A stretch of 64,000 nucleotides of DNA from IMG/VR virus record IMGVR_UViG_3300031576_000032, positions 1-64,000 of that record; one strand, given 5' to 3'. Shown in pieces: positions 8,982-56,479 of the stretch (position 1 is the stretch's first letter; the number at the start of each line of letters is the position of its first letter). The notes under the pieces are model-generated. The model saw only the letters and a list, made by a program, of their open reading frames with translations. It was not told where the DNA came from and ran no database searches. This DNA is from a virus. Position numbers and translations under genes: made by a program.

Positions 8982-9865
8982 CGCGTCGCCTTGTCCTTCC
9001 GGAACACGAGGATCGTCTGGTACAGCGGCGGCTTCTTCCCCGTCTTCTTCTCGTACGTGTTGAGGAACATCGTCGTTGGGTAATGTCTCAAGATCGCCGT
9101 TCCCTCGTGCGTAAGCCCGAGTTCGGTTAGGAGATCCCCGATCTTCACGTGAAGAAGAAACGGCTCGCCCTTACGCATCATATCCTTGACAGAGACGACG
9201 AACCGGCCGTTCTTCTTCATCCGGGCGATGCACTTCTGGTAAATGTCTCGGATCGCGGCCCAGTACGCGTCGTTCTCCCGAAGGAGGCCGAGGTTCGCAT
9301 ACCGTTTGTCGTACCTCATCTCCTTCGGTTGTTTCTTCATATCTTTTTCGGCATATCCGAAGAAGCTCTCTCGGACGTCCCCTGAGTACGGCGGGTTGTT
9401 GACGACGAGCGAGAACCGAGGAAGATCCGCGATCACCGACTCGATCTCTCGGGCGTCTCGGTGAACGACCCGGAACTTCGCGCCATTCGAGACCGCGGCG
9501 GCGCGGGCGAGGTTCGCTTCGACGACGTCGAAGAACTCGATCTCACACCCCGCCGCGTTCCGGCCCATCCGGAGCGCCTCGACGGGAGTCGTTCCCGCCC
9601 CGACCATCGGATCGAGGACCCAGTCGTTCTTTTTCGTAAACGTCTGGATCGCCCACCGAGCGACATGGAGCGGCGTCTTCGCCGGATGCTTCTTTTCGAT
9701 CGGATCGTAAAACGATTTCCTCTCGAGCCGGGAGTAGTTCCGTCCGTCAGGACGAATCAGCTCCCCGAGAAACGGCTTCGAGTATTTGCTAACGCCGACG
9801 TAGTCCGTCGGCATATTCGGTCCGGCGTTCAATAACTGGACCGGTTCGATCTCGTTCTTGTCCAT
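8978..9865 (-). CDS. DNA amino-methyltransferase (N6-adenine or N4-cytosine)
   Basis: A 295-residue SAM-dependent methyltransferase. Motif I is VLDPMVGAGTT (near residue 82), followed by an acidic residue in GCEIEFFD, and the catalytic motif is NNPPYSG (near 156), in the order seen in the gamma/zeta classes. NPPY favours N6-adenine, while the DPMVGAGTT element resembles the N4/N6 family (PF01555). No partner nuclease is adjacent, so it probably protects phage DNA from restriction. ATGA overlap with the next gene. Confidence 0.85.
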   Translation of the reverse strand: MDKNEIEPVQLLNAGPNMPTDYVGVSKYSKPFLGELIRPDGRNYSRLERKSFYDPIEKKHPAKTPLHVARWAIQTFTKKNDWVLDPMVGAGTTPVEALRMGRNAAGCEIEFFDVVEANLARAAAVSNGAKFRVVHRDAREIESVIADLPRFSLVVNNPPYSGDVRESFFGYAEKDMKKQPKEMRYDKRYANLGLLRENDAYWAAIRDIYQKCIARMKKNGRFVVSVKDMMRKGEPFLLHVKIGDLLTELGLTHEGTAILRHYPTTMFLNTYEKKTGKKPPLYQTILVFRKDKATR

Positions 9866-9877
9866 CCGCTCCCTCCC

Positions 9878-11398
9878 TTAAAAGTTCGACAACACCTTTC
9901 CCGACGGGACCGACGGGACCGACGGGACCGACGGAACGATCGGCGCGGGTTTCACATCTCTCGGCTTCGGTTGTGGTTTCTTCGGTTCAGCCGGAACTGG
10001 CGGAGTCTCCAGGGGGACCTTTCTCGGTCGTCCCCGGCCGCGCTTAGGAATCGACTGGAACTCCGCGACGGACACCGCGGCGCGTTCGACCTTCGGCCTC
10101 CGTTCTTTCTTCGGCTTAGGCGGTTTGTACGTCGGATCGATCGCGTTATCCCAACGCGTCAAGTCCTCGGGTTCGACTCTCATCGGCAGGTGGCACCGAA
10201 ATAGCATCGTGCACTCTTCGCACGCTTTCGGTTGATTCGAGTACCCGACGTTTTCGCAGTACCACTGTTTCGCGTCGTCGACATATCGGTCGGGCGGCAA
10301 AAATCGATGTCCCGACGACTCGAACTTCACACCGTTGATATGAGCGGCGATCTGTTTTGCGATGTACGCGTTGAACTGGACGGGCATCGCTTTCCCCGTC
10401 TGCTTTACGATCGTCGCATCTTTCGTGTGGTTCCATTCGCCTTTCTCGTTCAGGATCGTCCCGTAGAAGATGAAGTCGTCGGGGAACCCCTGGATTCTCG
10501 CGCGCTCGCGGATCGTATACGGAAGGCACCGCTCCCCGTGGATCGCCGGAGCGCCCCCGGTTAGGACCGCCGCGTGCCCGTCCCAGTGATTCCGGTATGT
10601 CCCGATCCGTTTCTTGTAGGACCCGTCTGCCGTCTGGTACGGAAGGACCGTCCCGGGACGGCCGTCCTTAAAGAACTTCTGGACCTCGCGCCACGTCGCC
10701 TTCTCCCCGCGTTTCGAAAAATGCATCGCTCGGTCACATCGTCCATCGAGGACGTGAGGGTCATGATTCGGAATCGAATGGCTCCCCTTCTTTTGGGGAT
10801 CGGGGAGATCCCCGATAAGAGTCTGGACCGTTTCCTTGTTGTCATACTCCCCGGGCCGAAACGCGAACTTCTCCTTCTTCAGCGCCCCGATCAGGAAGAA
10901 CCGCTTTCGAAACCGTTGGACGTTTCCGTAATGAAAGTTCGACACCCACTCAGGGAACAGATCGTACTCCGGAAGAAGCGACGCATACTTCTCCATCGAG
11001 AACGCGATGAACGATTTCGGAAGATCGTCCATCACGAAAAACCTCGGCTTCACCCGCGCGACGAGATCGACGAACAAAGGAATGTCCCCGGGGTCGTCGC
11101 CACGGTTCGAATTCATTCCATCGAGTTGCGAAAAGTTCCCGCACTCTGGGTGTCCGAAAGCAACGTCGATCGTCGGTAACGCCGGGGCCTCCTCGATCGA
11201 ATGGACAAAGAACGCCCCCGGGAAGTTCTCAAGAAACGTATTCTTCCCGTCCTTGTCTTTCTTGTGGTAGTACTTCCGCCACTCGATATTTCCGAGGACC
11301 TCGAAACCCCCCATCCGCGCTCCGACTAACATTGAACCGATCCCGCACGTTAACCCAACCGCCTTCAACTTCTCAATACTCGGCGGTTTCCTCGGCAT
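9878..11398 (-). CDS. C5-cytosine DNA methyltransferase-like protein with AT-hook tail
   Basis: 506 residues. The N-terminal 350 contain C5-methyltransferase motifs: I (GLTCGIGSM), IV (GHPECGNFS, Cys86), VIII (VQRFRKRFFLIG), IX/X (ERARIQGFPDDF, GKAMPVQFNAYIA). The motif VI ENV is replaced by DDL (124-126), which is unusual because that Glu stabilises the flipped cytosine. The tail holds four cysteines (YC...ACEEC...RC), an AT-hook (RGRGRPRK) and a C-terminal VPS repeat encoded by near-identical gaccgacgg units. It may methylate or otherwise modify cytosine; the DDL change makes the exact activity uncertain. Confidence 0.85.
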   Translation of the reverse strand: MPRKPPSIEKLKAVGLTCGIGSMLVGARMGGFEVLGNIEWRKYYHKKDKDGKNTFLENFPGAFFVHSIEEAPALPTIDVAFGHPECGNFSQLDGMNSNRGDDPGDIPLFVDLVARVKPRFFVMDDLPKSFIAFSMEKYASLLPEYDLFPEWVSNFHYGNVQRFRKRFFLIGALKKEKFAFRPGEYDNKETVQTLIGDLPDPQKKGSHSIPNHDPHVLDGRCDRAMHFSKRGEKATWREVQKFFKDGRPGTVLPYQTADGSYKKRIGTYRNHWDGHAAVLTGGAPAIHGERCLPYTIRERARIQGFPDDFIFYGTILNEKGEWNHTKDATIVKQTGKAMPVQFNAYIAKQIAAHINGVKFESSGHRFLPPDRYVDDAKQWYCENVGYSNQPKACEECTMLFRCHLPMRVEPEDLTRWDNAIDPTYKPPKPKKERRPKVERAAVSVAEFQSIPKRGRGRPRKVPLETPPVPAEPKKPQPKPRDVKPAPIVPSVPSVPSVPSGKVLSNF

Positions 11399-12042
11399 TA
11401 GTACTCGCTCCGTTGCCGGAACCTATTGACTTCGGACTTCTTGAAGTACAACTCGAACACGGCATCCGCAGACATCCCGACGGTCCAAGACAGAAGACCA
11501 AGTCGCCCGACTGACTGGACGACGAGATCCTCAAACTTGTCTACGTCGGTTGAAACGTGCGACTGTTTCCACGGTTTATTCTTCAAGCAGTTCATCGCGA
11601 GGCCGAGGGTTTCGACGACCTTCCACGCAGAAAACATCACGACCGTTTCGCTATCCAACCCGGTATTTTTCCCCGGAATAATGATATCGAGACGATCTTT
11701 TCCGAGGTTATCGTCGACAACGTCGGCCGGGCCGAGTCCGATCTCGATCACGAGTTCGACGAGAAAATGCCAGGCGTCGGCGACTTCCTCCTTACAGTGG
11801 ACGGGATCAGCCATCGACTCAATCGCTTCGGCGAGTTCCTCAGTTACTCGCCAGGCCAGATCTTTCAGGAAGTATTGGCATTTCGGGTCGTCGATATGAA
11901 ACGTCGCGGGTAGAATCCCCCGACCGATCCCGGCTTTTCCCTCGATCTCGCTGTACTTCTTCGACAATTCCCGCTGCCGGTCGAAAATCATCTCGAGCCG
12001 GTCGCCTGTCGGCTCGGGGGCGGTCGCGTCGTTCACGTTCAT
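11398..12042 (-). CDS. All-alpha dCTPase/dUTPase (MazG-like NTP pyrophosphohydrolase)
   Basis: 214 residues with the helical NTP-pyrophosphatase signature of dimeric dUTPase/dCTPase proteins: FDRQRELSKKY, then EELAEAIE and KEEVADAWHFLVEL (EExxE...ExxD metal site). It hydrolyses dUTP and possibly dCTP to monophosphates, supplying dUMP/dCMP to the deaminase and the ThyA-fold enzyme and keeping unwanted bases out of phage DNA. The ATG at 12042 overlaps the asparagine synthetase stop (ATGA); its TAA overlaps the methyltransferase ATG (TAATG). Confidence 0.8.
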   Translation of the reverse strand: MNVNDATAPEPTGDRLEMIFDRQRELSKKYSEIEGKAGIGRGILPATFHIDDPKCQYFLKDLAWRVTEELAEAIESMADPVHCKEEVADAWHFLVELVIEIGLGPADVVDDNLGKDRLDIIIPGKNTGLDSETVVMFSAWKVVETLGLAMNCLKNKPWKQSHVSTDVDKFEDLVVQSVGRLGLLSWTVGMSADAVFELYFKKSEVNRFRQRSEY

Positions 12043-13406
12043 GTCGCGTAGGCCTTTCTGAAGGCGTCGATACACGCCATTCGCCACTCGATCTTCTTCT
12101 CCCCCCTGGACCCTTCGATCTTCAGGGGAACCTTCTCACGATGTAGAATAGAAAGTGGAACGATGTCCGCGAACGCTTCCTTCAATACTTCTTTGTGTTT
12201 CCTGCGTTCCCACGGGAGCGCGAGCGCGTAGTTCACGATCGGAAGGGCGAGGAACGGGCACCGGAGTTCGACCATCGAGAACATCATCGTCCGGTCAAGC
12301 CGGGGGAGGTGGTAGTGGATCAACTCGTGAAACACGTCGGACTTTTGCGAGTCATACTCGGCCGTGCGACGGTATCCTCCGAACAACTCGTCGGCCCCGT
12401 CCCCGGAAAGGACGACGTCAACCCCGGATTCTCGAACGGCCTTTCCTAGGTCGATTTGGGCCATCACCGAGCCGAGATCGACGGGGCACTGGTGGATTTG
12501 AACCGCGACTTCTTTTTCGATCTCGACTGGTCGGTTGATCGCGATCATCTCGATTTCGCTTCCGGGGAACCGAAAGTCCAGATGTTTTAGGAAGTCGGCT
12601 TCGTCGTTCTCAACATGAAAGACTTTGAAGTCGGTCCGGACCTTCTTCATCATCTCGAAAACGATCGTTGAGTCGAGTCCGCCGGAAAGAAGAACCCCGA
12701 CCGGAACATCCGACACCATTCGATTTCGGACAGACTCCTCGACGGCCGCACGAAGGTCCGTTCCAGTTGGGTATAACCCAAGTCCATACTGGTACGATTC
12801 CTTAAGCCGTCCGAACTCATCGTAGACTAGGATCGATCCAGGCGCAATCGAATGGATCTCGTTCCAGGGAGTCGACCGATCGTAACAATATCCGAACCGC
12901 GCGACCCCGCCGAGGTACGTTTCGTTCAACGTCGACGGCCCGGCCTCGAGCAAAGGATCGATCTCGGACGATATCGCAAGCGCCGGAAGCGTTCGGTAGT
13001 AAAGCGGCTTCTTCGCGAGCGGATCGGTCACGACCGTAACGGTCTTCTTCGACGTGTCAATGAATACAAACGACCAGAACCCGTCGAACCCGGCAAGACA
13101 TTTCGGTCCAAACTTCTCCCACATCGCGAGGACGACGGCGAGGTCGTTCTTCGCCGCCGGGTCATACTTTCGGAAGTTGAACACTTCCCCGACCATCAAC
13201 CCATACAGGTTCTTCGTACCGTGACGCATCGGCTGGTCGAACGTCTCGCTCAGCCCTTGAATCGGGAGCCGGGCGTGCGAGACGTATACGAGACCCGGTT
13301 GGAAGAACCTCGCGGTCGTCGTCCGTTTCCCCCGGTGCTCCAACTTTGCGGCCATCCTTTCGATGACGGATTTGTCTTTCCCAAAATAGACGTTAATCCC
13401 GCACAT
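12039..13406 (-). CDS. asnB: Asparagine synthetase-like glutamine amidotransferase
   Basis: 455 residues with the class II amidotransferase/synthetase plan of AsnB. Cys2 is exposed after Met removal (MCGIN); RLPIQGLS and GEVFNFRKY match glutaminase-site regions; the synthetase domain has LLSGGLDST (ATP pyrophosphatase loop) and LSGDGADELFGGY. It is shorter than bacterial AsnB (about 550). It could make asparagine, or transfer ammonia to an activated carboxylate on a base or other small molecule. Its place inside the nucleotide/base-modification operon (14-bp overlap with the kinase, ATGA with the dCTPase) makes a specialised role plausible. Confidence 0.85.
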   Translation of the reverse strand: MCGINVYFGKDKSVIERMAAKLEHRGKRTTTARFFQPGLVYVSHARLPIQGLSETFDQPMRHGTKNLYGLMVGEVFNFRKYDPAAKNDLAVVLAMWEKFGPKCLAGFDGFWSFVFIDTSKKTVTVVTDPLAKKPLYYRTLPALAISSEIDPLLEAGPSTLNETYLGGVARFGYCYDRSTPWNEIHSIAPGSILVYDEFGRLKESYQYGLGLYPTGTDLRAAVEESVRNRMVSDVPVGVLLSGGLDSTIVFEMMKKVRTDFKVFHVENDEADFLKHLDFRFPGSEIEMIAINRPVEIEKEVAVQIHQCPVDLGSVMAQIDLGKAVRESGVDVVLSGDGADELFGGYRRTAEYDSQKSDVFHELIHYHLPRLDRTMMFSMVELRCPFLALPIVNYALALPWERRKHKEVLKEAFADIVPLSILHREKVPLKIEGSRGEKKIEWRMACIDAFRKAYAT

Positions 13407-13881
13407 AACCCAGAACCGTCATCCCTCTCCTCTTCAGGTTCTCGATCACGACGTCATATCTCATCGCGATTCGGACGATCTTATCCGACACGACTTGAAC
13501 GTGATTGTCTGGTTTGTAGCCTTTTTCGGACGACAGCCGCGCAAGCTTCTCACGAGCGTGAGCAATTAACGTATCGACCGACGGCCGGCAGTACACGACG
13601 AAGAACCCTTTCTCAACGAACCGCCGGGCCGTGTCGTCGATCTCTGATTGCTCGACAAGAAGTCCGTTCCGGACGACCGATCCGTACACTTGTTCGGAGA
13701 TGAACGACGCCCGGTCAAGGACTTTCCCGTACCCCCGGAACTGCGTCGCGAACCGACCACGAAGGTCCTCCGCGTCCTTAGGCGGACCTCCGGCGTGGAT
13801 AATCTCGAGCCCGTGCTTACCGGCGAGGATCTTCGCGATAGTTGATTTCCCGGCCCCGTCGGGGCCTTCGATTATGATCAA
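13393..13881 (-). CDS. Deoxynucleoside monophosphate kinase (thymidylate kinase-like)
   Basis: A P-loop kinase of 162 residues with GPDGAGKST at 6-14, LDRASFISEQVY as the DR-containing nucleobase/phosphate segment, and an Arg-containing lid region. It resembles thymidylate kinases and phage dNMP kinases, which return (modified) dNMP to dNDP. It starts at TTG with a good ribosome site (aaggag). Genomic pairing with the dCMP-type ThyA enzyme suggests it may phosphorylate the modified monophosphate. Confidence 0.75.
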   Translation of the reverse strand: MIIIEGPDGAGKSTIAKILAGKHGLEIIHAGGPPKDAEDLRGRFATQFRGYGKVLDRASFISEQVYGSVVRNGLLVEQSEIDDTARRFVEKGFFVVYCRPSVDTLIAHAREKLARLSSEKGYKPDNHVQVVSDKIVRIAMRYDVVIENLKRRGMTVLGYVRD

Positions 13882-30264: not shown

Positions 30265-30527
30265 CAGTCTCTCCTTTCTCGGTCAACAACGAAGAGAAAA
30301 TCTTCCTCTTCGTTGTCGACCGAGTCGCGGGGGCCGTCGCCCGCGTTCCTAGCGCGTTCCGACGGGGCCACACGCCGATTCTCGGCCGGGTCAATGGGTC
30401 GCGCGGGGCGACGGACGCCCGCCGACGATAGCGCGTGCGATGGGCATTCGAGTAACAACTCCGCGTGCGGGTACCAGCGGCAACCACAACGATGGATCTT
30501 GAACAACGACGAATCCAGGGGTTTCAT
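30264..30527 (-). CDS. Hypothetical protein with N-terminal cysteines
   Basis: 87 residues from the ATG at 30527 (TAATG overlap with the upstream gene). Begins MKPLDSSLFKIHRCGCRWYP, with a Cys/His cluster that could bind metal, then a disordered Arg-rich tail. Confidence 0.55.
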   Translation of the reverse strand: MKPLDSSLFKIHRCGCRWYPHAELLLECPSHALSSAGVRRPARPIDPAENRRVAPSERARNAGDGPRDSVDNEEEDFLFVVDRERRD

Positions 30528-30742
30528 TAGTTCACGACCCTTTCGATTAGGTACCTTTTTCCTCCTCGGACGAGCCACCGAGACCCGCGCCAGAGGTTGA
30601 TCGCCTCGGCCCAATCGTATCTTGCGAACGAGATCTTCTTGAACCTTCGGCCGTTTCGGAGAACCCCTGTCACTTCATACTTGTCTCCTTTTTCTTGGGT
30701 CCAGGCGGTTCTGGATCTTGAGCGAGAGATAGGAGACGTCAC
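30527..30742 (-). CDS. Hypothetical basic protein
   Basis: 71 residues from a GTG that overlaps the stop of the repeat gene (TAGTG). KYEVTGVLRNGRRFKKISF...WRGSRWLVRGGKRYLIERVV is beta-rich and basic; it may bind nucleic acid. Upstream Val/Gly-rich codons in this frame are shadow of the repeat array. Confidence 0.6.
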   Translation of the reverse strand: MTSPISRSRSRTAWTQEKGDKYEVTGVLRNGRRFKKISFARYDWAEAINLWRGSRWLVRGGKRYLIERVVN

Positions 30743-30939
30743 TACTTCGACCTCGACCCCGACCCCGACCCCGACTTCGACCCCGACCCCGACCACGACT
30801 TCGACCCCGACCACGACTTCGACCCCGACCACGACTTCGACCCCGACCACGACTCCGACCACGACTTCGACTCCGACTTCGACTCCGACCACGACTTCGA
30901 CTCCGACTTCGACCCTATCAGAGCGACCGCGGGGGTCAT
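30742..30939 (-). CDS. Ser/Lys/Gly repeat protein
   Basis: 65 residues from the ATG at 30939, which overlaps the upstream stop (ATGA). After MTPAVALIG it consists almost only of SKSW, SESK and SGSK units. Overlapping start and stop signals with both neighbours favour translation; a short low-complexity tail or linker protein. Unknown role; the array may vary in length. Confidence 0.5.
   Translation of the reverse strand: MTPAVALIGSKSESKSWSESKSESKSWSESWSGSKSWSGSKSWSGSKSWSGSGSKSGSGSGSRSK
30747..30914. repeat. Hexanucleotide-based minisatellite
   Basis: About 168 bases made of cgacnn units arranged in larger repeats of 15 bases (cgaccccgaccacgacttcg-like). Encodes the Ser-rich repeats on the minus strand. 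Prone to slippage, so assembled length may not be exact. Confidence 0.85.
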
Positions 30940-42406: not shown

Positions 42407-44476
42407 TTGTCTTGGGGTAGCGCCGGATCAATCGGTGTCGGGAATAGCAAGGCGTCGGGGACGACCCTTGTCCTGACGACGACCGCGACGGCCGAGGCCG
42501 GGAACGTCGTGTTCCTGGTCATCGCTTCGGACAACGTCGCGACGGCCGACGGGAATACATCCGAAGTTTCCTCGATCGCCGATTCCGCAGGCGGGAACAC
42601 GTGGACGAAGGCGCGCGAGTTCTGTAACGCGCAGGGTGCCGCGAACGCCGGGACGACTCTCTCGTTCTGGTACTCGAAACTTGTCAACCAGATCGCCAGC
42701 GGCGGGACGATCACTGTCACGTTCGCGAACACGATCACGGCGAAGGCGATTTCGGCTCAAGAGTTCACCATGGCCTCGGGGTCGCTGATCAGTATTGTTG
42801 ACGCGGCGGATCTACCGAACGACGTTCTAGACGTTGGGTCGATGACGACTGCGACGCTCCCGTCAAACGAGTATCTGTTCTTCCGGGCGATTGCTGGCGA
42901 GACGACGACGGCGATCGCATTCACGCCGACGACGAACTTCACGGAAGTCACGCGTGGCCAGATGACGGGCGGGCTCCCGGCATCGAATCAGTCAGCGTTC
43001 GGCGAGTTCCGGATCGTCACCTCGACGGCGCAGACGAGCAATCCGACGACGATCATTGGGGACTACGCGTCGTCGTTTGTTGTGTTCAAGGAACTCGTCG
43101 TCCAGAATCTTTCCGGCGCGAGTGGGATCGCGACTGGCGAGGCAGTCGGCGCGGAGAAGGTCAACCATTCGCTCCCGTCTGGCGGCGGGATCGCATCGGC
43201 GTTTGCGGTTGGCATTGCTACAATTTCGCTTGGGGTCTCGTTGGTTGGTGGTCTCGCGAGCGCGGAGGCATTCGGATCGGCGTCGGTCAAACGCTTGCTT
43301 TCTGTGGCTGGCGGAATCGTTTCGGCTGAATTGTTCGGGGCCGGGTCGCTCGGCGGATTCCTTGTTAGCGCTGGCGGGATCGCGTCGGGCGAGGCGTTCA
43401 GTGTCGTGGCCGTTGGAAAGGTGCCGACGTTCGTTGCGGCTGGGTCGGTCGCCTCGTCGAGCAGCGGCGGGAACGTCTTCCCGAGCCTTCCGGCTGGGTT
43501 TGCGGCTGGGCACTATCACGTTTGCGTCGTCGGGAAAAACGCAACGACGAACGCGCCGACTATGTTTTCGCCGGATTGGGATGTTCTCCTACCCCATACG
43601 ATCGTATCAGGAGCCGGAGGCACGATCGCGCTCTCGATCTTCGGGCGCAGGGCGCAGGCCGGGGACGTCGTGCCGACGGTGTTCTACGCTGGGACAAATG
43701 CAATCATCGCGAGGATCGCCGGGTACCATGGCGTTGCCCTCGCGGCTACGATCGCAGCCGAGGTCGTCGGCACTCCGCAGGGGAACGCGAGTGTTGATAC
43801 GACTCTGACGTGTCCGCCGATCGTGACTTTGACGGACTTCGATCGCGTCCTGCTTGTCGGAGCGGCAGCGAACGGCGGGAACTTCACTGGATACTCCGGA
43901 GTACCGCCGCCGGTAGAGAGAATTGATTCTGGGATCGGTGCCCAGGCGGCAATCGTAGTCGCCGATTTTTTTAAGACGCCTGCTGGTAGCACGAGCGCGC
44001 AAGACTCCACGATAACGATTCCGCCCCTCGGGAACGCGCGGATCGGCGTACAGATCGCGCTTCGTCCGCCGACGAACGTGGCGACTTCGGGCGCTGGTGG
44101 AATTGGGTCATCGGAGGCGTTCGGCGTCGCGTCGATCGGTATCAGGGCGCCCGGTGCCGGTGCAATCGCGACCGGAGAGGCGCTCGGAGTTGCATCGGTC
44201 AAGACGAGACTCAACGACGCCGGTGGAATCGTATCGGCCGAAGCGTTCGGGTCGGCTAGCGTGAATGGGACGCTCGGCCCATCATCGATTCTATCCGCCG
44301 AGGTGTTTGGTGTTGCAAGTATTTCGCAACGGGGGTTTAATGTTGGTGGAATTGAATCGGCTGAAGTGTTCGGAAAACCACTAATCTATGTTGGACCACT
44401 AGTTGCACCGGTTGAGCGAAGTGAAATTGTTCGTGGGGAAAATCGGTTTATCCCAGTTATTGACGGGTCTATCTAA
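42407..44476 (+). CDS. Virion appendage protein with GGIxSAEAFG repeats
   Basis: 689 residues from a TTG directly after the upstream stop. The N-terminal 230 residues form a beta domain (TLVLTTTATAEAGNVVFLV, a concanavalin/Ig-like layout), then about five repeats of the form GGIxSAEAFGxASV at roughly 22-residue spacing. A second beta domain follows (ATNAPTMFSPDW...), then about five more repeats. Such repeats are known from phage tail or head-fibre proteins. Likely surface-exposed receptor or carbohydrate-binding fibre. Confidence 0.7.
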   Translation: MSWGSAGSIGVGNSKASGTTLVLTTTATAEAGNVVFLVIASDNVATADGNTSEVSSIADSAGGNTWTKAREFCNAQGAANAGTTLSFWYSKLVNQIASGGTITVTFANTITAKAISAQEFTMASGSLISIVDAADLPNDVLDVGSMTTATLPSNEYLFFRAIAGETTTAIAFTPTTNFTEVTRGQMTGGLPASNQSAFGEFRIVTSTAQTSNPTTIIGDYASSFVVFKELVVQNLSGASGIATGEAVGAEKVNHSLPSGGGIASAFAVGIATISLGVSLVGGLASAEAFGSASVKRLLSVAGGIVSAELFGAGSLGGFLVSAGGIASGEAFSVVAVGKVPTFVAAGSVASSSSGGNVFPSLPAGFAAGHYHVCVVGKNATTNAPTMFSPDWDVLLPHTIVSGAGGTIALSIFGRRAQAGDVVPTVFYAGTNAIIARIAGYHGVALAATIAAEVVGTPQGNASVDTTLTCPPIVTLTDFDRVLLVGAAANGGNFTGYSGVPPPVERIDSGIGAQAAIVVADFFKTPAGSTSAQDSTITIPPLGNARIGVQIALRPPTNVATSGAGGIGSSEAFGVASIGIRAPGAGAIATGEALGVASVKTRLNDAGGIVSAEAFGSASVNGTLGPSSILSAEVFGVASISQRGFNVGGIESAEVFGKPLIYVGPLVAPVERSEIVRGENRFIPVIDGSI

Positions 44477-48281: not shown

Positions 48282-49292
48282 ATGGCTCGAAAGGGTGGTG
48301 GCGGTAAGGCGGTTCTCGCAGACGCGAAGGGACTGTTTAACGGTCCTGGCGGCGGGACGATGGTCAAGCAACTTCTTGCGAATGACATGGATTTCGACAA
48401 GATCCGTGTTAACACATCGACTCTCCGGTATGACGAGCAAAAGGAGCTTGACGAAAAGCTTCTTGAGATCTCTAGGTTTGAACTCGGCGCGGTCCCGGCG
48501 ATTCTTGCGGCGGGGCTTCGGTACGATTTCGATGGGATGTCGGCGACGATCCTTCAGTATGAGGATATGTCCGACATCACGGACGCCGAACTCGGGATGT
48601 CTCCGCTTGGTCGGGGGAAGACGGACAACCCCGAATTCACGCAGAAGATCCTGCCCCTCCCGTTCATGTTCAAGAACTTCTTCATCGATGCCCGGAAGCT
48701 TCGGATGTCGAGGAAGCTCGGCCAGCCTCTTGACACGACGGGCGTGGCGCTTGCGACTCGGAAGGTGATGGAACTCGCTGAAGACATCCTCGTCAACGGG
48801 TCGAGTGGATATCCGTTTGGTGGGGGGAATATCTACGGAATCATCGATCACCCGAACGTCAACGCGGTGTCGCTTGGGACGTCGTGGGCGACGGATACCG
48901 GAGAAAACGTCATTGCGGATGTTCTGTCGGCGATTCAGGCGTCGGTTAACGTGAAGCACGGGGGTCCGTTCGAGCTTTGGATTCCCAGGAACTTCCGATC
49001 GGCGATGTCGAAGGACTATTCGACTGCGAAGGGCGACAACACGATCCGGCAGAGGATCCTTGATATCGACGAGATCAAGGCGGTTCGTACAATCAACGCG
49101 ATGCCGTCGAGCAAGGTCGCGCTCGTCGAGATGCGCGAAGAGACGATCCGGATGGTGATGGGTCTTCAGCCGCGAGTCGTCGAATGGGACACCGAGGGCG
49201 GGCTCGGCCTTAACTTCAAGGTTCTCGGGATTATGGTTCCGCAAATTCGCGCGGACCAGGATGGGAACTGCGGGATCACGATCATCTCGTAA
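48282..49292 (+). CDS. Major capsid protein (HK97 fold)
   Basis: 336 residues. VMELAEDILVNGSS...NIYGIIDHPNVN, then ALVEMREETIRMVMGLQPRVVEW match capsid proteins of the encapsulin-like/DUF6260 type with the HK97 fold. Follows the decoration protein with its own ribosome site. Downstream hairpin (ggacccgg/ccgggtcc at about 49317-49341) could modulate expression of the distal genes. Confidence 0.88.
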   Translation: MARKGGGGKAVLADAKGLFNGPGGGTMVKQLLANDMDFDKIRVNTSTLRYDEQKELDEKLLEISRFELGAVPAILAAGLRYDFDGMSATILQYEDMSDITDAELGMSPLGRGKTDNPEFTQKILPLPFMFKNFFIDARKLRMSRKLGQPLDTTGVALATRKVMELAEDILVNGSSGYPFGGGNIYGIIDHPNVNAVSLGTSWATDTGENVIADVLSAIQASVNVKHGGPFELWIPRNFRSAMSKDYSTAKGDNTIRQRILDIDEIKAVRTINAMPSSKVALVEMREETIRMVMGLQPRVVEWDTEGGLGLNFKVLGIMVPQIRADQDGNCGITIIS

Positions 49293-49394: not shown

Positions 49395-49721
49395 ATGAGG
49401 CGAAAGGTCGATCCGATCCGGACGTGGAGGAAGAAGCCGGGGTTCGGTCCATACTTGTACAAGAAGGACGGCGAGCTCGTCGAGGTTAAGACTGGAGAGA
49501 CTCTTGAGTGTTCGAAGATGGCCCTCGGGACGTACGTTGAACGATTCGACCTCGCTGACGAGGACGAAACGGTCGAGGAGCCGTCGCGGTACGTGTCCGT
49601 TCCCCGGAAGGACGAGTCCGGGTTCGATGTCGTCGATCGCGAGACGGGTCGGCCAGTGAATGAAGCTCCGATGACCGAGGACGAAGCGAAGGAGTTTCTG
49701 GAGAAGTACGAGGAAGATTAG
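49395..49721 (+). CDS. Small acidic head-region protein
   Basis: 108 residues, MRRKVDPIRTWRKKPGFGPYL at the N-terminus, then acidic. May be a head-completion or regulatory protein; no family recognised. Two bases before the GTG of the next gene. Confidence 0.6.
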   Translation: MRRKVDPIRTWRKKPGFGPYLYKKDGELVEVKTGETLECSKMALGTYVERFDLADEDETVEEPSRYVSVPRKDESGFDVVDRETGRPVNEAPMTEDEAKEFLEKYEED

Positions 49722-49723
49722 TT

Positions 49724-50404
49724 GTGCCAGCGACGCGTCTCGAGAGAGTCCTTGGTCCGGGAGGGAAGCGAGCGACCCTCGTTTCGTCTCACAAGGCGTG
49801 GATCGTTCCGCGAATCTGGCCCGAGTCGACTGTCGCGATCCTCGGCGGGGGGCCGTCGCTTCCGTCGGCTGAGGATCTCAAGAAGATTCCGCTTTCATGG
49901 AAGACGATCGCGGTCAACATGGCGTTTCGGTCCGCGCCATTCTCTGACGTTTTGTTCTACGGAGATCCCCATTTCCCGTCGATCACTCGTGCGACGGACG
50001 GCCCGACGATCGACGATTTCGCGGGGCTCGTTGTCACGCGCGTCGCTCCGGGAGATGGGAGCGCGATGTTCGTCGCGTGGGAGTCGGGGATCGATGGGAT
50101 ATCGAAAGATCCGACGCGACTTCGATGGAACCGATCGAGCGGCGCGTGCGCGATCGGACTCGCGCGGCATTTCGGCGCGAAGAGGATTGTCCTTTTTGGG
50201 TTCGACATGCGAATCGTCGACGGGAGGAAGAACTTCCATTCGTGGTATGGACGCGATTTGAAGAATCCATTCGAACAAATGCTCGAACCGTTCGGCGCGA
50301 TTGAACGAGACCTTCACGAGGAACAGATCGAGTGCATTAACGCGACGCCGGGTTCTGCGATTCGATCACTCCCGATTGTTGACCCGGTGAGCCTCTTCGT
50401 ATGA
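49724..50404 (+). CDS. DUF115/MptE-like Rossmann protein of the glycosylation cassette
   Basis: 226 residues from a GTG. VAILGGGPSLPSAEDLKKI, TIAVNMAFRSAPFSDVLFYGDPHF and GACAIGLARHFGAKRIVLFGFDM match the DUF115 fold of motility-accessory-factor (flagellin nonulosonate transfer) proteins and MptE. In phages such proteins are annotated as putative sugar transferases. ATGA overlap with the next gene. Confidence 0.72.
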   Translation: MPATRLERVLGPGGKRATLVSSHKAWIVPRIWPESTVAILGGGPSLPSAEDLKKIPLSWKTIAVNMAFRSAPFSDVLFYGDPHFPSITRATDGPTIDDFAGLVVTRVAPGDGSAMFVAWESGIDGISKDPTRLRWNRSSGACAIGLARHFGAKRIVLFGFDMRIVDGRKNFHSWYGRDLKNPFEQMLEPFGAIERDLHEEQIECINATPGSAIRSLPIVDPVSLFV

Positions 50405-51057
50405 ACGTCGTCTGCGTCCTGAAATCGGGCGGGGACTATGACGTCGGCGACGTCGAGAACTTGTCCCGGCAGATCCGGAAGAACTTGGACGTCGGCGCGA
50501 TCTTCTGTTTGACCGACGTCCCGTTCGACATCTCAAGGTTCGAGAAGACGGGGATCGTTGTCGTGCGACTCAAATCAACGTGGCCCGGATGGTGGGCGAA
50601 GATGGAACTGTTTTCGATCCCCGGGCCGGTCCTTTACTTCGACCTCGACACGGTGATCGTTAGCGACCTTGCCCCCCTGGTGACGGCGATCGATGCGATT
50701 GGTCGCGACCGGATTTTAATGCTCCGGAACTTCTACGACCCGTCTCCGGGTTCCGGAATCATGGGATGGAACGGAGATTTCTCGTCGATGTTCCGGCAAT
50801 TTCAGGCTGCGGTCGAGACCGGGGACTTTTTGAAGCGGGGCGATCGGTGGACGTTTACTCACGACGGGAAAACGTACCCGGGGGATCAAAACTGGATCGC
50901 GGCGCGGCTTTCCGAGTCGAAGAGGGTCCCAGTGTTTGCCCAAGACGTAGTCGACGGGATCGTTAGCTACAAAGTCGGGTCTGTCGAAAAGAACGGGCTT
51001 CCTCCTGGAGCGCGGATCGTTGTGTTTCATGGGAAACCCCCCGGCCGTGGGAATTGA
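50401..51057 (+). CDS. Glycosyltransferase-like protein (GT-A fold, DLD)
   Basis: 218 residues. VVRLKSTWPGWWAKMELFSIPG then LYFDLDTVIV gives the DxD motif for nucleotide-sugar/metal binding; GSGIMGWNGD and DQNWIAARLSE are typical of GT8/GT32-like acceptor regions. Probably transfers a hexose. Part of the co-oriented cassette. Confidence 0.78.
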   Translation: MNVVCVLKSGGDYDVGDVENLSRQIRKNLDVGAIFCLTDVPFDISRFEKTGIVVVRLKSTWPGWWAKMELFSIPGPVLYFDLDTVIVSDLAPLVTAIDAIGRDRILMLRNFYDPSPGSGIMGWNGDFSSMFRQFQAAVETGDFLKRGDRWTFTHDGKTYPGDQNWIAARLSESKRVPVFAQDVVDGIVSYKVGSVEKNGLPPGARIVVFHGKPPGRGN

Positions 51058-51079
51058 ATCCGGTTCCAGTGTGGATAAC

Positions 51080-51874
51080 ATGACGCCGCTTTGGTTTTTC
51101 TGGGGTCAGAAGCGAATGTCGTTCTTGCGGTACATGACGCTCCGTAGCGCGTGCGATGTTCACGCCGATGTGCGGATTATTGTTCGCGATGAGGAGCTTC
51201 GGCCAGCCGTGAAGTGGGTAGAGTCTCAGGACTTCATGAACAATGACGATGGTGCCGACTGGATGGCGGAGGCGATGAAACTGCCAATCAGGGTCCACGA
51301 TCTCCGTGAGATCGCGCCCGTGCTATCCGACCTTCGGGCGCCAGACGTCCAGACGAGCGACCTGCTCGCTTGGTGGATCCTCGCGACGATCGGCGGAACG
51401 GTCTGCGATATGGACATCGTGTTCCTGAAGCCGCTCCCGGAGATTATCGAGAACGTTGAGGTCGCGCGTTGGGAGCGCGATGTCCACCGATATGATTACC
51501 TTCCGATCGGATACATTCAGGGTCGACCACACGACAAGTGGCGTGACGCGTATGCGAAGGCGCTTGCGGCATATGATCCGAACGTGTACCAGTCGTGCGG
51601 TGGCGAAAACCTCAAGCCGTGGCCGGAGGCCCGACTAAGCCCGTTCGTCGTGTACCCTTGGGCCGGGGCGGTCTACCGGCAGATCCTGGACTATTGCTTC
51701 AAGACGACTCACTGGCCGCCACTACCCGTCGCGTGCGTTGGGGTCCACTGGTACGGCGGTGCGTGGCAATCTGAGAACGCGCGGATCAACGGGCCGGACG
51801 ACCTTGAAGCGGGTGCCGTCTCGTGGGCGATCAAGACCGTCCTCGCCGGTTCAGAAGTGGTGGTGCCGCGATGA
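51080..51874 (+). CDS. GT32-like glycosyltransferase
   Basis: 264 residues from the ATG at 51080 (an in-frame GTG at 51071 or TTG at 51020 is possible). SDLLAWWILATIGGTVCDMDIVFLKPL is the DxD-containing core of GT32/Och1-like transferases. GC-style codons (GCG, CGC) differ from its left neighbour by eye. ATGA overlap downstream. Confidence 0.82.
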   Translation: MTPLWFFWGQKRMSFLRYMTLRSACDVHADVRIIVRDEELRPAVKWVESQDFMNNDDGADWMAEAMKLPIRVHDLREIAPVLSDLRAPDVQTSDLLAWWILATIGGTVCDMDIVFLKPLPEIIENVEVARWERDVHRYDYLPIGYIQGRPHDKWRDAYAKALAAYDPNVYQSCGGENLKPWPEARLSPFVVYPWAGAVYRQILDYCFKTTHWPPLPVACVGVHWYGGAWQSENARINGPDDLEAGAVSWAIKTVLAGSEVVVPR

Positions 51875-52653
51875 GAGTCTCCGTCGTTAACTTCTGCTCG
51901 ACGGCACTTGAGATGCTCAAGTTTTCCACCGAGTCGCTTCTTGAGAACGCGGGGACTGGCGATTTTGATTATCTCGTCGTGACGTGGAATCCCAGCCCAG
52001 AGGTCGAGGCTTGGCTCGATGCGCAGCCATCGATTTATCGCGCTCGGTACCAGACGGACAACTCGTTTGACTATGTTCCGAATCTCCGGAAGATGATGAG
52101 CTATGGGTTCAGCGAGGGCTATCAACTCAACGACTACGTCGTCATCGTGAACACGGACATGGCATTCGGCGAGTGTTGGCTTGAGAATCTCGCCCGCCGC
52201 GCCGATGAGGACGTGATTCCCAATTCGGTCCACGTTACTCCAGTCGAGTCACCGTTCGTCGTCGTCGCAAATTTCGGCATCCCGACGCGCGAGACGTTCG
52301 ATATGGCGCGCTGGGAAAAACTTCACGACAAGCTCCTCACTTCGGCAAAGAATGATGCCATCGCGCGTGGTTTGGACATGGTCCAGACACCCGAGGATCG
52401 TGGCGGCGACTGGCGGTCGTGTGCGACGATGCCGTATGTCCTTCATAGGAAATGGTGGGAGCGGTTCGGCCCCTGGGAACCGAACCTCGATGGGCAGAAG
52501 GAAGCACCAGATCGGAGGTTCTTTGGTCGATGCCACGACGGTGGGGCGAAGTTCGTTCTCTGCTTGGATTCGATCTGTTATCATCATGAAGCAGTAGAGC
52601 GACGCGGGTCGTGTCGGCCGATCGGGGTCGAGTCGATGAAAGCGGGGTTGTAG
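51871..52653 (+). CDS. Family 2-like glycosyltransferase
   Basis: 260 residues. RVSVVNFCSTALEMLKFSTES at the N-terminus and DYVVIVNTDMAFGECWLENLARRAD (the NTD acting as DxD) suggest GT2; PYVLHRKWWERFGPWE is the usual acceptor-side motif. Overlaps its neighbours by ATGA and TAGTG. Confidence 0.78.
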   Translation: MRVSVVNFCSTALEMLKFSTESLLENAGTGDFDYLVVTWNPSPEVEAWLDAQPSIYRARYQTDNSFDYVPNLRKMMSYGFSEGYQLNDYVVIVNTDMAFGECWLENLARRADEDVIPNSVHVTPVESPFVVVANFGIPTRETFDMARWEKLHDKLLTSAKNDAIARGLDMVQTPEDRGGDWRSCATMPYVLHRKWWERFGPWEPNLDGQKEAPDRRFFGRCHDGGAKFVLCLDSICYHHEAVERRGSCRPIGVESMKAGL

Positions 52654-53315
52654 TGGACTGGGGAACGGCGGAGATGGAATCGTTTTGGTCGAAGATGCAT
52701 TCTCGGAACGACGGACCCGCGCTTACGGGATCTTCACTCGTGAGCGTTCGTGATACCCCCGGGCTTGGTACTGTTCCAATTCCGGGAATCCATATGTTGG
52801 AGATCGGGGTCGGGCTCGGTCGGGCCACGAAGGAGATTCATGACCTTGGAGTCGTCGTCGATACGCTTGATATCTGCAATGAAGCGCTCGACCGAGTCGT
52901 CGACTTTACGCGGGCTCGATATCTTCATCGGGACATCGAGAATCTTTCCGTCGATGAATATGATCTCGCGGTGTCGCTCCTCGTCACGCAGCATATGAGC
53001 GATCGTGATATCCTTTGGCAGTTCCCCCGCGTGTTCCGGTCCTTGAACCAAAAGGGCCGATTCGTCGTTCAGTGGGCGGGGTCGCGAATTGACGGGGAAA
53101 ACGACAATCACGGGACGGTCCTCGGGGAATACGGTCCGGTTGATGGGATCACTCCGGTCGGGATGATCTCGGGCCGTATGGTTAGGAGCGAATCGCATGC
53201 GACTTCCCTGATCGAGCGGTCAGGGGGAAAGGTGCTCGAGATCCGGGGCCGCCGCGAGTTTCCAGAGTTTAAGTCGTGCTGGTTCGTAACCGAATGTAGG
53301 AAAGTTGATGGCTAG
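52653..53315 (+). CDS. SAM-dependent methyltransferase
   Basis: 220 residues from a GTG in TAGTG. MLEIGVGLGRATKEIH is motif I of class I methyltransferases; VVDTLDICNEAL and VSLLVTQHMSD are the next motifs. Within a sugar cassette it probably O- or N-methylates a sugar, as in nucleotide-linked glycan pathways. Confidence 0.75.
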   Translation: MDWGTAEMESFWSKMHSRNDGPALTGSSLVSVRDTPGLGTVPIPGIHMLEIGVGLGRATKEIHDLGVVVDTLDICNEALDRVVDFTRARYLHRDIENLSVDEYDLAVSLLVTQHMSDRDILWQFPRVFRSLNQKGRFVVQWAGSRIDGENDNHGTVLGEYGPVDGITPVGMISGRMVRSESHATSLIERSGGKVLEIRGRREFPEFKSCWFVTECRKVDG

Positions 53316-54033
53316 GGCGACTCTCTTGATCGTGGCGCGGAATCGCGCCCAGCAGTTCGCAGTCGCTATGTTGACGATCTGGAATCGGAAGTATAAGGAC
53401 ATCGACATCCTCGTCGTTGATGATGGATCTTTTGACGACACGCCGAGGATCACTAGGGATTTTAGCGACGTGATCACCAGGTACCATCGGATCGATCGAC
53501 CAGGGGGGTATCGTCGGAATCCAGCGGAGGTCCTTAATATCGGGCACGCGCTTTCTGAGACGGACGTTGTGATCGAGCAGGGAGCCGAAGTCTGTCATCT
53601 TACGGACTGCGTTACTCCTTTACTTGAGGGGTGTTCGTCTGGGACCGTCGTCCTAGCAAGAGTCTACAATGGACGAACGGAAGACCTCGACCGAGTGGAG
53701 TCGGCGCTACGGGCCGGAAAACTTCTTCCGTCGGTCCGGGATCATGTTCCTTCAAGTGTTCGAACGGATGGCGACCGGTGGCCCGTTCCTCGAGTCGACG
53801 TGCACGCGACCAGCGGGATCGGGGTCGATCTTTATTGTGGGGAGGAAAGAGCCGTTCCGTTCCTGTTTCTTGGGGCGAGCCATGGGGACGATTTCTCCGC
53901 GGTCGGCGGGTATGACGAGAAGCTTTCTGGCCGGAACGATGAGGACCTTGCGAACCGGCTTCTCGGCCGTGGCGTCCGGTTCGTCTTCTCGAACCAAGCG
54001 ATCGCGTTTCATCTTCTTCATGGAAAGTCTTAG
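53308..54033 (+). CDS. Family 2 glycosyltransferase
   Basis: 241 residues from the ATG at 53308. ATLLIVARNRAQQFAVAML, DIDILVVDDGSFDDTPRI is a textbook GT2 N-terminus, and LFLGASHGDDFSAVGGYDEKLSGRNDEDL is the acceptor-side ED motif (NDED). Likely inverting transferase using a nucleotide sugar. Confidence 0.85.
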   Translation: MARATLLIVARNRAQQFAVAMLTIWNRKYKDIDILVVDDGSFDDTPRITRDFSDVITRYHRIDRPGGYRRNPAEVLNIGHALSETDVVIEQGAEVCHLTDCVTPLLEGCSSGTVVLARVYNGRTEDLDRVESALRAGKLLPSVRDHVPSSVRTDGDRWPVPRVDVHATSGIGVDLYCGEERAVPFLFLGASHGDDFSAVGGYDEKLSGRNDEDLANRLLGRGVRFVFSNQAIAFHLLHGKS

Positions 54034-54035
54034 CG

Positions 54036-54320
54036 ATGGTTGAACCGGTATACGACTTCATTTGCTCGATCGGGGAGCTGATCGACAAGCTTTCGATTGA
54101 GAACATCAAGTGTTATGATGCGAACACAAGAGCGATTGCTGAAAGGAAGAAGACTGACCCGAGTGCGACGGTGATCGCCGATTGTGAAGGACAGGCCCGA
54201 TCGTCGGGGGAACAGCGGGTCCGGCTTAAGAACGAAATAAATAGGCGACTCGCCGAAGCTATTGAGCGTGGTAAGATAAGGCACGCGGCGGAGACGCGGA
54301 CATATCGGAGGGAATCGTAA
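54036..54320 (+). CDS. Small DUF4254-like protein of the cassette
   Basis: 94 residues. DFICSIGELIDKLSIENIKCYDAN is the helical phrase of DUF4254/glycan-operon proteins, and RLKNEINRRLAEAIERG ends it. DUF4254 proteins often sit beside glycosyltransferases. Function unknown. Confidence 0.65.
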   Translation: MVEPVYDFICSIGELIDKLSIENIKCYDANTRAIAERKKTDPSATVIADCEGQARSSGEQRVRLKNEINRRLAEAIERGKIRHAAETRTYRRES

Positions 54321-54328
54321 GGAGACCG

Positions 54329-55309
54329 ATGGTTGAGATTGTTAAAGATGCGGTTCATCGAATCGAGTCTTACTCGGTCGCTGGCTTGTTCCCCGCGAAA
54401 CTCCTTCAGGGGGAGACTCTCCGTAAAGGCCGGATCGTCCCTCGGCACGTCCAGATTTATCTTACGAACGCGTGCAATCTCGATTGCTCGTTCTGCTCGT
54501 GTGCGGACCGGAAACTTACGGAGCGGATTCCCCCCGACGAGATCGAGAAAATCCTTCCGATGCTCGCGAGCTTGGGGACGGAGGCGATTACGCTGTCGGG
54601 CGGCGGAGAACCGTCGCTTCATCCGGCGTTCAATCGCGTAATCGACCTCGCGCATGCGCACGGGATACGGGTTGGACTCGTCAGCCACGGGGGGCTTCTT
54701 TGGAAGCGGCTCGAGTCAAAGAACTTGACGTGGGCACGAATCTCACGATCCGATGTGATGGACCAGTCTGGGGATTACTTCTCGAACCTGTCCGGCGTTG
54801 TTCGGAAGTTCTCGAATACGGACTGGGCGTTTAGCTATGTTCTGATGTCCGAACCGATCTGGGATAAGATGCGTGAAGCCGTTCGGTTCGCTGGGGAGCA
54901 TGGATTCAAACACGTTCGGATCGTGTCGGATCTCCTCGACCTTCCTAACGTTCCGTCTATGGACGAGGTGAAGTTCCAACTCGCGGGCGTCCCCGGAGAA
55001 GAGATCGTCATCTACCAGGGAAGGAAAGGATACACGGTCGGGCGGGAGAAGTGTCTGATCAGTCTCTTGAAGCCGGTGATCGCGGCAGACGGTCGGTTGT
55101 TCCCTTGCTGCGGGGCGCAGTACGCGCTCCCTGAGTCGAAACGAGACACCGTCGATGAAATGTGTATGGGCCGATGGGAAGACATGCCGCGGATTTGGGG
55201 AGATCAGGCAAACTTCAACGGATCGGCGTGCGTCCGTTGTTACTATGATGGCTACAATCAGGCGCTTGACTATATGACGATGCCTCTTGCGCATAAGGAG
55301 TTCGTCTAG
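54329..55309 (+). CDS. Radical SAM/SPASM enzyme
   Basis: 326 residues. CNLDCSFC (Cys49, 53, 56) binds the [4Fe-4S] cluster; LSGGGEPSLHP is the SAM-binding GGE-type motif. The C-terminus has FPCCGAQYA and CVRCYYDGYN, a twitch/SPASM-like auxiliary cluster site. Such enzymes modify peptides, sugars or bases through radical chemistry. Substrate unknown; it ends the cassette and overlaps the first connector gene by one base. Confidence 0.85.
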   Translation: MVEIVKDAVHRIESYSVAGLFPAKLLQGETLRKGRIVPRHVQIYLTNACNLDCSFCSCADRKLTERIPPDEIEKILPMLASLGTEAITLSGGGEPSLHPAFNRVIDLAHAHGIRVGLVSHGGLLWKRLESKNLTWARISRSDVMDQSGDYFSNLSGVVRKFSNTDWAFSYVLMSEPIWDKMREAVRFAGEHGFKHVRIVSDLLDLPNVPSMDEVKFQLAGVPGEEIVIYQGRKGYTVGREKCLISLLKPVIAADGRLFPCCGAQYALPESKRDTVDEMCMGRWEDMPRIWGDQANFNGSACVRCYYDGYNQALDYMTMPLAHKEFV

Positions 55310-55680
55310 TGGCTCGTGTTAGTAACGATTTCGTCAAATCCTTGATCGATACGGGACTTACAGAAGATCAAGTAACTCCTTTTCTTCTGACAGCAAGTAT
55401 CGTCGTGACCGAGAATATGATTACGCTTCCGGATGGGACTTCGACAGGGTACTCGGAAGACCGACTTGCGATGATTGAAGCGTGGCTCGCGGCGCATTAC
55501 ATCTCCGTTCGTGATTCTCGGGTAAGGGAAGAAACGACGGGGGCGATTGGGGGCGGCGCAACAAGCGCGACGTATGACGTCCTTCGGTACTTCGACCAGG
55601 CGAAGATGCTCGATCCCCTTGGTATCCTTTCGGCGATCGCGAAAACGAAAGGGTCGGCCGAGGTGTGGACGATCGCGTGA
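55309..55680 (+). CDS. Head-tail connector (adaptor) protein
   Basis: 123 residues from a GTG. Helical, SEDRLAMIEAWLAAHYI and TYDVLRYFDQAKMLDPLG as in gp6-like/DUF4054 adaptors at the portal exit. Followed by the stopper gene (GTGA overlap). Confidence 0.75.
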   Translation: MARVSNDFVKSLIDTGLTEDQVTPFLLTASIVVTENMITLPDGTSTGYSEDRLAMIEAWLAAHYISVRDSRVREETTGAIGGGATSATYDVLRYFDQAKMLDPLGILSAIAKTKGSAEVWTIA

Positions 55681-56057
55681 GTCACGGCCGGTCAACGCGA
55701 TTCATAGCGACACTCCGGGAGAAAGCGGTATACTGGGGGTCGCCGGTCATGACGGGGTCGGGCGGGACGACATACGCGGACCCGGTCGAGGTGAAGTGTC
55801 TTTGGGAGGACGCGATGCAACTCGTCGACGATATGAAGGGTCGGGAGGTCCAGTCGTCTTCGACCGTGTACGTCGACCGGGCGCTTGTCCCTGAGGGGCA
55901 GATCGTCAAGGGCCGTCTTCGCGACTTCACGGACGAGCAAAAGGCCGATCCTCTTGGGGCTGCCTGGCCGGTTGCGCTTAGGCCGAAGAAGGTCATCAAG
56001 GCGGGGTCGTACCCCTGGCTTCATGGGCCGGGGACGGTGAACCAAGTATGGCTCTAA
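55677..56057 (+). CDS. Head-tail stopper-like protein
   Basis: 126 residues from a GTG overlapping the upstream stop. Beta-rich (VYWGSPVMTGSGGTTYADPVEVKCLWED...) like phage head closure proteins. Position between adaptor and gp10-like gene fits. Confidence 0.7.
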   Translation: MSHGRSTRFIATLREKAVYWGSPVMTGSGGTTYADPVEVKCLWEDAMQLVDDMKGREVQSSSTVYVDRALVPEGQIVKGRLRDFTDEQKADPLGAAWPVALRPKKVIKAGSYPWLHGPGTVNQVWL

Positions 56058-56479
56058 AGGGCGGGTCACGCGGGCCGGTCAATCCGGTCAGCATTGAGGA
56101 GATGCTTCAGAACCTTCGTCGGGAAGTTCATTGGATCAAGGAGGCGTCCGAAAATGCCCTTGACGTTGTTGTTCATAAGATCGGGGTCCGAAGCCAGGAA
56201 CTCGTTCCTGTTGCGACGGGACATCTTAAGTCGACGTTCGGGACTCGGACGTTCCGAAACCGGCAGAATGAAGTCACGGTTATTTTGTATTACACCGCTG
56301 ACTACGCTTTGTGGGTCCATGAGATCAACGCCCATCACGCTTCGCCGACGCAGTGGAAGTATCTTCAGACTGCGATCGACGAGTACCGTGGGGAGATAAT
56401 GCAAGACCTTGCCGCGTCGGTCAGGGCGAACCGTTCGGGGGCGGGGATCGCAGGGGCGGTCGTCGGAGCCGGAGTTTGA
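56048..56479 (+). CDS. HK97 gp10-like tail/neck protein
   Basis: 143 residues. VRSQELVPVATGHLKSTFGTR and YYTADYALWVHEINAHH match the HK97 gp10 family (tail completion). Co-oriented, 10-base overlap with the previous gene. Confidence 0.8.
   Translation: MALKGGSRGPVNPVSIEEMLQNLRREVHWIKEASENALDVVVHKIGVRSQELVPVATGHLKSTFGTRTFRNRQNEVTVILYYTADYALWVHEINAHHASPTQWKYLQTAIDEYRGEIMQDLAASVRANRSGAGIAGAVVGAGV

Follow-up and report, generated by a model that had tools for sequence, protein, structure and literature searches.

The gene at 54329-55309 (+) of the 64-kb stretch of virus DNA analysed here (the window, part of a virus record of 70,187 bases) encodes a radical SAM enzyme, P0001, in a cassette of glycan genes inserted among virion genes. 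As enzymes of this family lie beside sugar-transferring enzymes among virion genes in many unrelated phages, the likeliest target of P0001 is a sugar in a phage-made glycan. Our preferred reading, to which we give a probability of about 0.55, is that it is an optional Twitch enzyme tailoring the sugar of a virion-linked glycan, probably by two-electron oxidation or epimerisation.

The gene is intact, with an open frame, an ATG start preceded at 5 nt by a Shine-Dalgarno-like AAGGAG, and a stop that shares one base with the start of the next gene (55309). Its product of 326 residues matches Pfam Radical_SAM (PF04055) at 1.7e-13, with a score of 51.5 bits (cut-off 29.5), and contains the radical-cluster motif CX3CX2C as CNLDCSFC at residues 49-56 (C49, C53 and C56), as well as a GGE-type motif, GGGEP, at residues 91-95. 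These matches are far above chance, and the radical SAM identity given in the original prediction is upheld. The cassette, at 49724-55309, lies between the genes of the major capsid protein (MCP) and of a head-tail connector. The relevant features are the following (GT, glycosyltransferase):

48282-49292 (+): MCP (phrog_771, 6e-18; phrog_264, major head protein, 2.7e-14), forming the left border with the gene at 49395-49721.
49724-50404 (+): first gene of the cassette, MptE-like or alpha-2,3-sialyltransferase-like putative GT (phrog_4603, 6e-23; PF01973, 1.3e-5, below cut-off).
50401-51057 (+): putative GT (phrog_1962, 1.7e-28; one member of its family weakly matches GT8).
51020-51874 (+): GT32-like GT of the DXD type (Gly_transf_sug, 1e-3, below cut-off; its homologues in cassettes match better).
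51823-52653 (+): GT2-like by inspection, cluster GTc19 (no Pfam or PHROG match; homologues in 8 loci).
52611-53315 (+): class I SAM-dependent methyltransferase (Methyltransf_25, 9.8e-7; same cluster in 36 of 78 loci).
53305-54033 (+): family 2 GT (Glycos_transf_2, 1.3e-9; family near 58 of 67 radical SAM homologues).
54036-54320 (+): short DUF4254-like protein, 94 aa (PF14063, 3.3e-4, below cut-off).
54329-55309 (+): radical SAM enzyme with a predicted Twitch motif.
55309-55680 (+): small conserved protein, right border (phrog_37884).
55665-56057 and 56048-56479 (+): head-tail connector and neck protein, right border (phrog_3881 and phrog_5).
47759, 56881 and 58057: decoration protein, tail tube and tape measure genes.

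The true starts of the genes at 51020-51874 and 51823-52653 may be further downstream. With decoration, MCP, connector, neck, tail tube and tape measure genes around it, the enzyme gene does sit in a virion operon, as had been predicted. The GT genes are phage-encoded together with virion genes, as in phage virion glycosylation systems, and Pfam and PHROG searches of the window cassette recognised neither a flippase nor a polymerase, nor any other membrane polysaccharide gene. Two other reading frames of the window deserve mention. The one at 42407-44476 (+), between the portal and head protease genes, encodes a 689-aa product with many GGIASxEAFGxAS-type repeats and no Pfam match. The other, at 30527-30892 (-), is a predicted ORF of VGVEV/VVVGV-type repeats, of low complexity and doubtful coding status.

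The C-terminal half of P0001 reads C242-X12-G255-X4-C260...C301-X2-C304, which corresponds to the sequence definition of Twitch, or half-SPASM, domains (CX9-15GX4C followed by CX2C). A full SPASM motif comprises seven Cys residues, CX9-15GX4C-gap-CX2CX5CX3C-gap-C (PMC6231123). After the core, the conserved Cys residues among 33 homologues are C242, C260, C261, C301 and C304 only, and PF13186 (SPASM) is matched by only 4 of these 33 family members. By its sequence, the C-terminus is thus a Twitch-type half-SPASM motif rather than a full SPASM domain. The SPASM label of the original prediction was therefore half right: Cys residues for an auxiliary cluster are present, including the two pairs that it had pointed out (C260-C261 and C301-X2-C304), but C242 had been overlooked and the motif is only the half one. 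Among the best 25 matches of P0001 in an NCBIfam scan, none reaches its cut-off, the best scoring 43.5 of 380 bits. A profile of the C-terminal half matches no solved structure in the PDB. With a wider profile, the best PDB match is SkfB (1.1e-21), other peptide maturases also rank high, and BtrN is matched at 2e-4 over profile positions 44-114 only, which belong to the core. The radical SAM motif begins some 40 residues in, with no RRE-like domain at the N-terminus, and Pfam finds no other confident domain. Literature searches turned up no work on this enzyme, and a single passing mention of DUF4254. The function of such enzymes is hard to predict from sequence clustering within their subfamily (PMC6231123), and we agree with the earlier statement that the chemistry of this one cannot be read from its sequence.

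Three scans of virus contigs were performed for relatives, the last of which yielded 75 loci. Homologues are found on about 70 virus contigs, are 29-60% identical to P0001 and are mostly full-length. An alignment of 33 of these phage proteins shows eight invariant Cys residues (C49, C53, C56, C242, C260, C261, C301 and C304), together with GGG91-93, H40, Q42, R137, AFS167-169, H195, R197, D201, Q230, R232, K248, Y306, Y309, N310 and H322. Judged on these sequences, P0001 belongs to a phage radical SAM family that bears no curated model's name, within an otherwise ordinary superfamily. Named phages gave partial or weak matches only. Two of them, Pelagibacter phage HTVC008M and Synechococcus phage SynMITS9220M01, have a methyltransferase gene next after the radical SAM gene and sugar-related genes nearby, and their radical SAM proteins share with P0001 a C-terminal H-x2-F motif. 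The identity of 34-38% is nevertheless restricted to the core, and the genes are not located between MCP and connector.

A few loci of the family have peculiarities of their own. On a 469-kb virus contig (L041:10004-12097), an intein with a LAGLIDADG domain (Pfam Intein_splicing 4e-8, just under the cut-off; LAGLIDADG_3 1.6e-8) splits the radical SAM homologue between the two Cys residues of the conserved CC motif homologous to positions 260/261. Another homologue (L042:10001-10931) consists of two overlapping ORFs of 216 and 105 aa in different frames, owing either to a sequencing error or to a real frameshift. Finally, L003 (7346-9430) and L017, in a matching gene, encode a large radical SAM protein of the B12-binding type. 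It lies upstream of the Twitch enzyme, at a distance of two to four genes, and gives these glycan regions two radical enzymes each.

Plasmid records contain near full-length relatives of P0001, at 22-26% identity, in bacterial sugar gene clusters. The relative on Brachyspira hyodysenteriae pBHWA1 is flanked by rfbF and rfbC, and that of Streptomyces vietnamensis pSVL1 is found with genes for UDP-galactopyranose mutase, a DegT aminotransferase and a nucleotidyltransferase. The one on Solidesulfovibrio pDCAR1, for which 71% of the query is matched, is near pseB, pseC, methyltransferase genes and a GT gene. An exact-peptide scan for cellular homologues with one query sequence gave a sole match, to the core, in a Spirochaetia bin. 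Seven Cys residues (C49, C53, C56, C242, C260, C301 and C304) are invariant across the aligned phage and bacterial sequences. C261 varies, which leaves four Cys residues for one auxiliary cluster. The proteins of these O-antigen or nucleotide-sugar clusters thus have in common with P0001 the seven cluster Cys residues and a near full-length alignment, but their identity to it is low. Unlike them, the phage family adds C261 and the HxQ, FSYV, HVR, YQGRK and CYYxxYN motifs.

Gene neighbourhoods were compared over 78 loci by means of a codon-usage gene caller and blastp clustering, with family names taken from profile searches. In this set, 53 loci contain GT2 genes and 36 the methyltransferase cluster, most often immediately downstream of the radical SAM gene. 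The MptE-like/sialyltransferase-like putative GT is present in 26 loci and MCP and the GT32-like gene in 21 each, while 15 loci have a sulfotransferase-like gene and 8 have sugar epimerases. In loci with recognisable virion genes, the cassette is frequently located between MCP and connector. According to profile searches, a GT or methyltransferase gene is present at most four genes away in 63 of 70 non-redundant loci (a GT in 61), and one or the other is the direct neighbour of the radical SAM gene in 55. Of the seven exceptional loci, two are truncated at the end of their contig, and another four make up a single group, with genes for DUF4254-type proteins, epimerases or B12-binding radical SAM proteins. 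Within 6 kb of the radical SAM gene, 58 of 67 loci have GT2, 40 the methyltransferase and 31 the GT32-like gene; sugar-nucleotide synthesis genes are absent from most cassettes. The original prediction would have fallen if the homologues occurred alone and scattered, unconnected with glycan or virion genes, and with 63 of 70 loci harbouring a GT or methyltransferase gene so close, this is not what we see. In other phage groups, the enzyme is accompanied by the same GT and methyltransferase families next to different virion genes, and the enzyme tree, for the MCP group alone, has at least three context changes on well-supported branches. The constant company of the enzyme is glycan genes and not a virion protein.

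A sugar made by the cassette, a virion protein or a small cassette protein such as the product of 54036-54320 had been proposed as substrates. The sugar fits these neighbourhoods much better than the two others. Relatives of 54036-54320 are present in just 9 of 67 loci and track another gene: as a substrate or partner it was rejected, as it accompanies the GT-like gene of the 51823-52653 type in 7 of the 8 loci of that gene. MCP-related cassettes devoid of the enzyme contain no such relative. This short gene is a member of a sub-cassette, not a general partner. More generally, a search for small ORFs (15-110 aa, up to 3 kb away) yielded no cluster present in more than four loci, and those found look like lysis or structural genes. 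The small peptide partner often seen for SPASM enzymes, which the original prediction evoked, thus has no conserved candidate beside the enzyme.

In phages related to that of the window by their MCP, the interval between MCP and connector is a preferred place for glycan genes. A single-sequence scan found no MCP relatives, and a profile scan with 14 sequences recovered the contigs. In those with a readable interval, GT genes lie between MCP and connector in 51 of 52 cases and the radical SAM gene in 6 of 52, which identifies the slot as a glycan hot spot in which the enzyme is optional. By its MCP, Brevundimonas phage MaInes is the closest named phage (34% identical). It is collinear for the portal, protease, decoration protein, MCP, 55309-type and neck genes, with homologues of the 55309 and 56048 genes shortly downstream of its MCP, and in this collinear comparison it has no such cassette between MCP and the 55309-type gene. 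Of the MaInes head genes compared, none corresponds to 42407-44476.

In the MCP group, GT2 genes are present in 22 of 23 loci with the enzyme versus 8 of 40 without (Fisher 3e-9), and GT32-like genes in 14 of 23 versus 0 of 40 (Fisher 2e-8), in tests that ignore kinship and compare sets found by different queries. Correction for kinship on the MCP tree leaves three independent well-supported pairs, of which a mean of 2.5-2.7 go as expected and none against, with significance unreachable at that number. When the radical SAM gene is missing, the MptE-like GT is still found, in 39 of 40 cassettes. As for loci L122-L200, their MCP-to-connector interval of variable genes (1-9 kb) nearly always includes the MptE-like GT and often a sulfotransferase-like gene; sulfated capsid glycans are possible in these phages. 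Caulobacter phage CcrColossus (98832-103385) has a comparable glycan cassette between its tail and lysis genes. Annotated there are genes for a sialyltransferase-like protein, a nucleotide-sugar transferase, a methyltransferase and a GT9; a radical SAM gene is lacking.

How might such an enzyme operate? Reduced SAM at the CX3CX2C cluster would give rise to a 5'-deoxyadenosyl radical, which would take a hydrogen off a carbon of the substrate. C242, C260, C301 and C304 would hold one auxiliary Fe-S cluster, which could accept a second electron, and the product would be a ketone, or an epimer if re-reduction follows. The Twitch enzyme BtrN of butirosin synthesis, with its four-Cys auxiliary cluster, performs a two-electron oxidation of an aminocyclitol (PMC9012708). 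P0001 and its relatives have the same arrangement of a CX3CX2C core and a single four-Cys half-SPASM auxiliary site, as in BtrN-type sugar dehydrogenases. However, the match to BtrN does not extend beyond the core, and the phage protein has 326 residues versus about 270 in the PDB chain; the parallel concerns a possible way of working. A sugar as the class of substrate is moderately supported. It would most likely be linked to a nucleotide or already placed by the GTs of the cassette, and the same glycan would be the target of the methyltransferase and of both types of transferase, GT2 and GT32-like. Given the position of the cassette next to the capsid gene, in the late virion block, the glycan is probably destined for a virion protein, with a change of the host surface as another possible outcome.

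Twitch and SPASM enzymes often act on peptides. P0001 could accordingly modify an amino acid of a virion protein by epimerisation, oxidation or cross-linking, perhaps to prepare a glycosylation site, and we regard this as rather unlikely. The MCP and connector genes adjoin the cassette, and SkfB and other Twitch or SPASM peptide maturases, with which P0001 would share a Twitch domain, stand high in the PDB list. Nevertheless, the virion neighbours vary from one phage group to the next whereas GT2, GT32-like and methyltransferase genes recur, and 46 of the 52 MCP-related intervals lack the enzyme. Unlike maturases of the SkfB type, or RiPP maturases in general, the phage enzyme has neither an RRE domain nor a conserved precursor peptide gene, and its bacterial relatives belong to sugar clusters.

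A host surface polysaccharide might be altered instead of the virion, for example to exclude other phages. Such a role was proposed for the GTs of the host-recognition clusters of pelagimyophages, in which radical SAM cassettes were noted in 2020 (PMC7029224). The O-antigen-type clusters of the bacterial relatives, and the GT and methyltransferase cassette between tail and lysis genes of the Caulobacter jumbo phage, go in the same direction. On the other hand, the window cassette follows right after the MCP gene, in a row with late virion genes and overlapping them, at a stage when the benefit would presumably be small, and no membrane polysaccharide gene was recognised in it. We therefore see a host target as improbable.

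Participation in a DNA hypermodification pathway is very doubtful. The phage DNA is possibly modified, given that genes at 8253-13881 (-) of the window code for thymidylate synthase-like, dUTPase-like, asparagine synthase-like and kinase-like proteins and two DNA methylases (N6/N4 and C5). That block, however, is 40 kb off on the opposite strand, and a thymidylate synthase match was obtained in only one of 24 enzyme-bearing virus records, that of the window, some of which may be incomplete. Least credible of all is a viperin-like nucleotide modifier or a MoaA-like cofactor enzyme, since the weak matches to these models end within the radical SAM core and are far below the curated cut-offs (42.5 bits versus 325 for MoaA, 40.3 versus 180 for viperin), and since the auxiliary cluster of MoaA, which binds GTP, has three Cys ligands (PMC9012708) while four are conserved here even in distant relatives.

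Tailoring of a virion glycan remains the explanation that we favour. Capsid glycans have been published for mycobacteriophages Che8 and Rita, which like the phage of the window encode GTs (cited in PMC11256854). According to the available part of that source, their GT genes are near the genome end, and it mentions no radical SAM enzyme. For the phage of the window, virion glycans are a prediction. It is tempting to speculate, if only tentatively, that several unrelated tailed-phage lineages have capsid glycans with a radical-made sugar, such as a keto or epimerised one. They would owe it to a mobile cassette in which a dedicated radical SAM enzyme would join a GT2, a GT32-like transferase and a methyltransferase. 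To our knowledge, a virion glycan made with a radical SAM enzyme would be the first of its kind.

Our study defines a phage-borne radical SAM family for which no curated model has a name and which is constantly accompanied by glycan genes located among virion genes. A further result is that the capsid-connector interval of a widespread group of siphophages nearly always contains a variable GT cassette. If the enzyme does act on a sugar, radical chemistry would diversify virion glycans, and adsorption, host range or recognition of the virion could change as a result; the content of the cassettes would then indicate which phages merit mass spectrometry.
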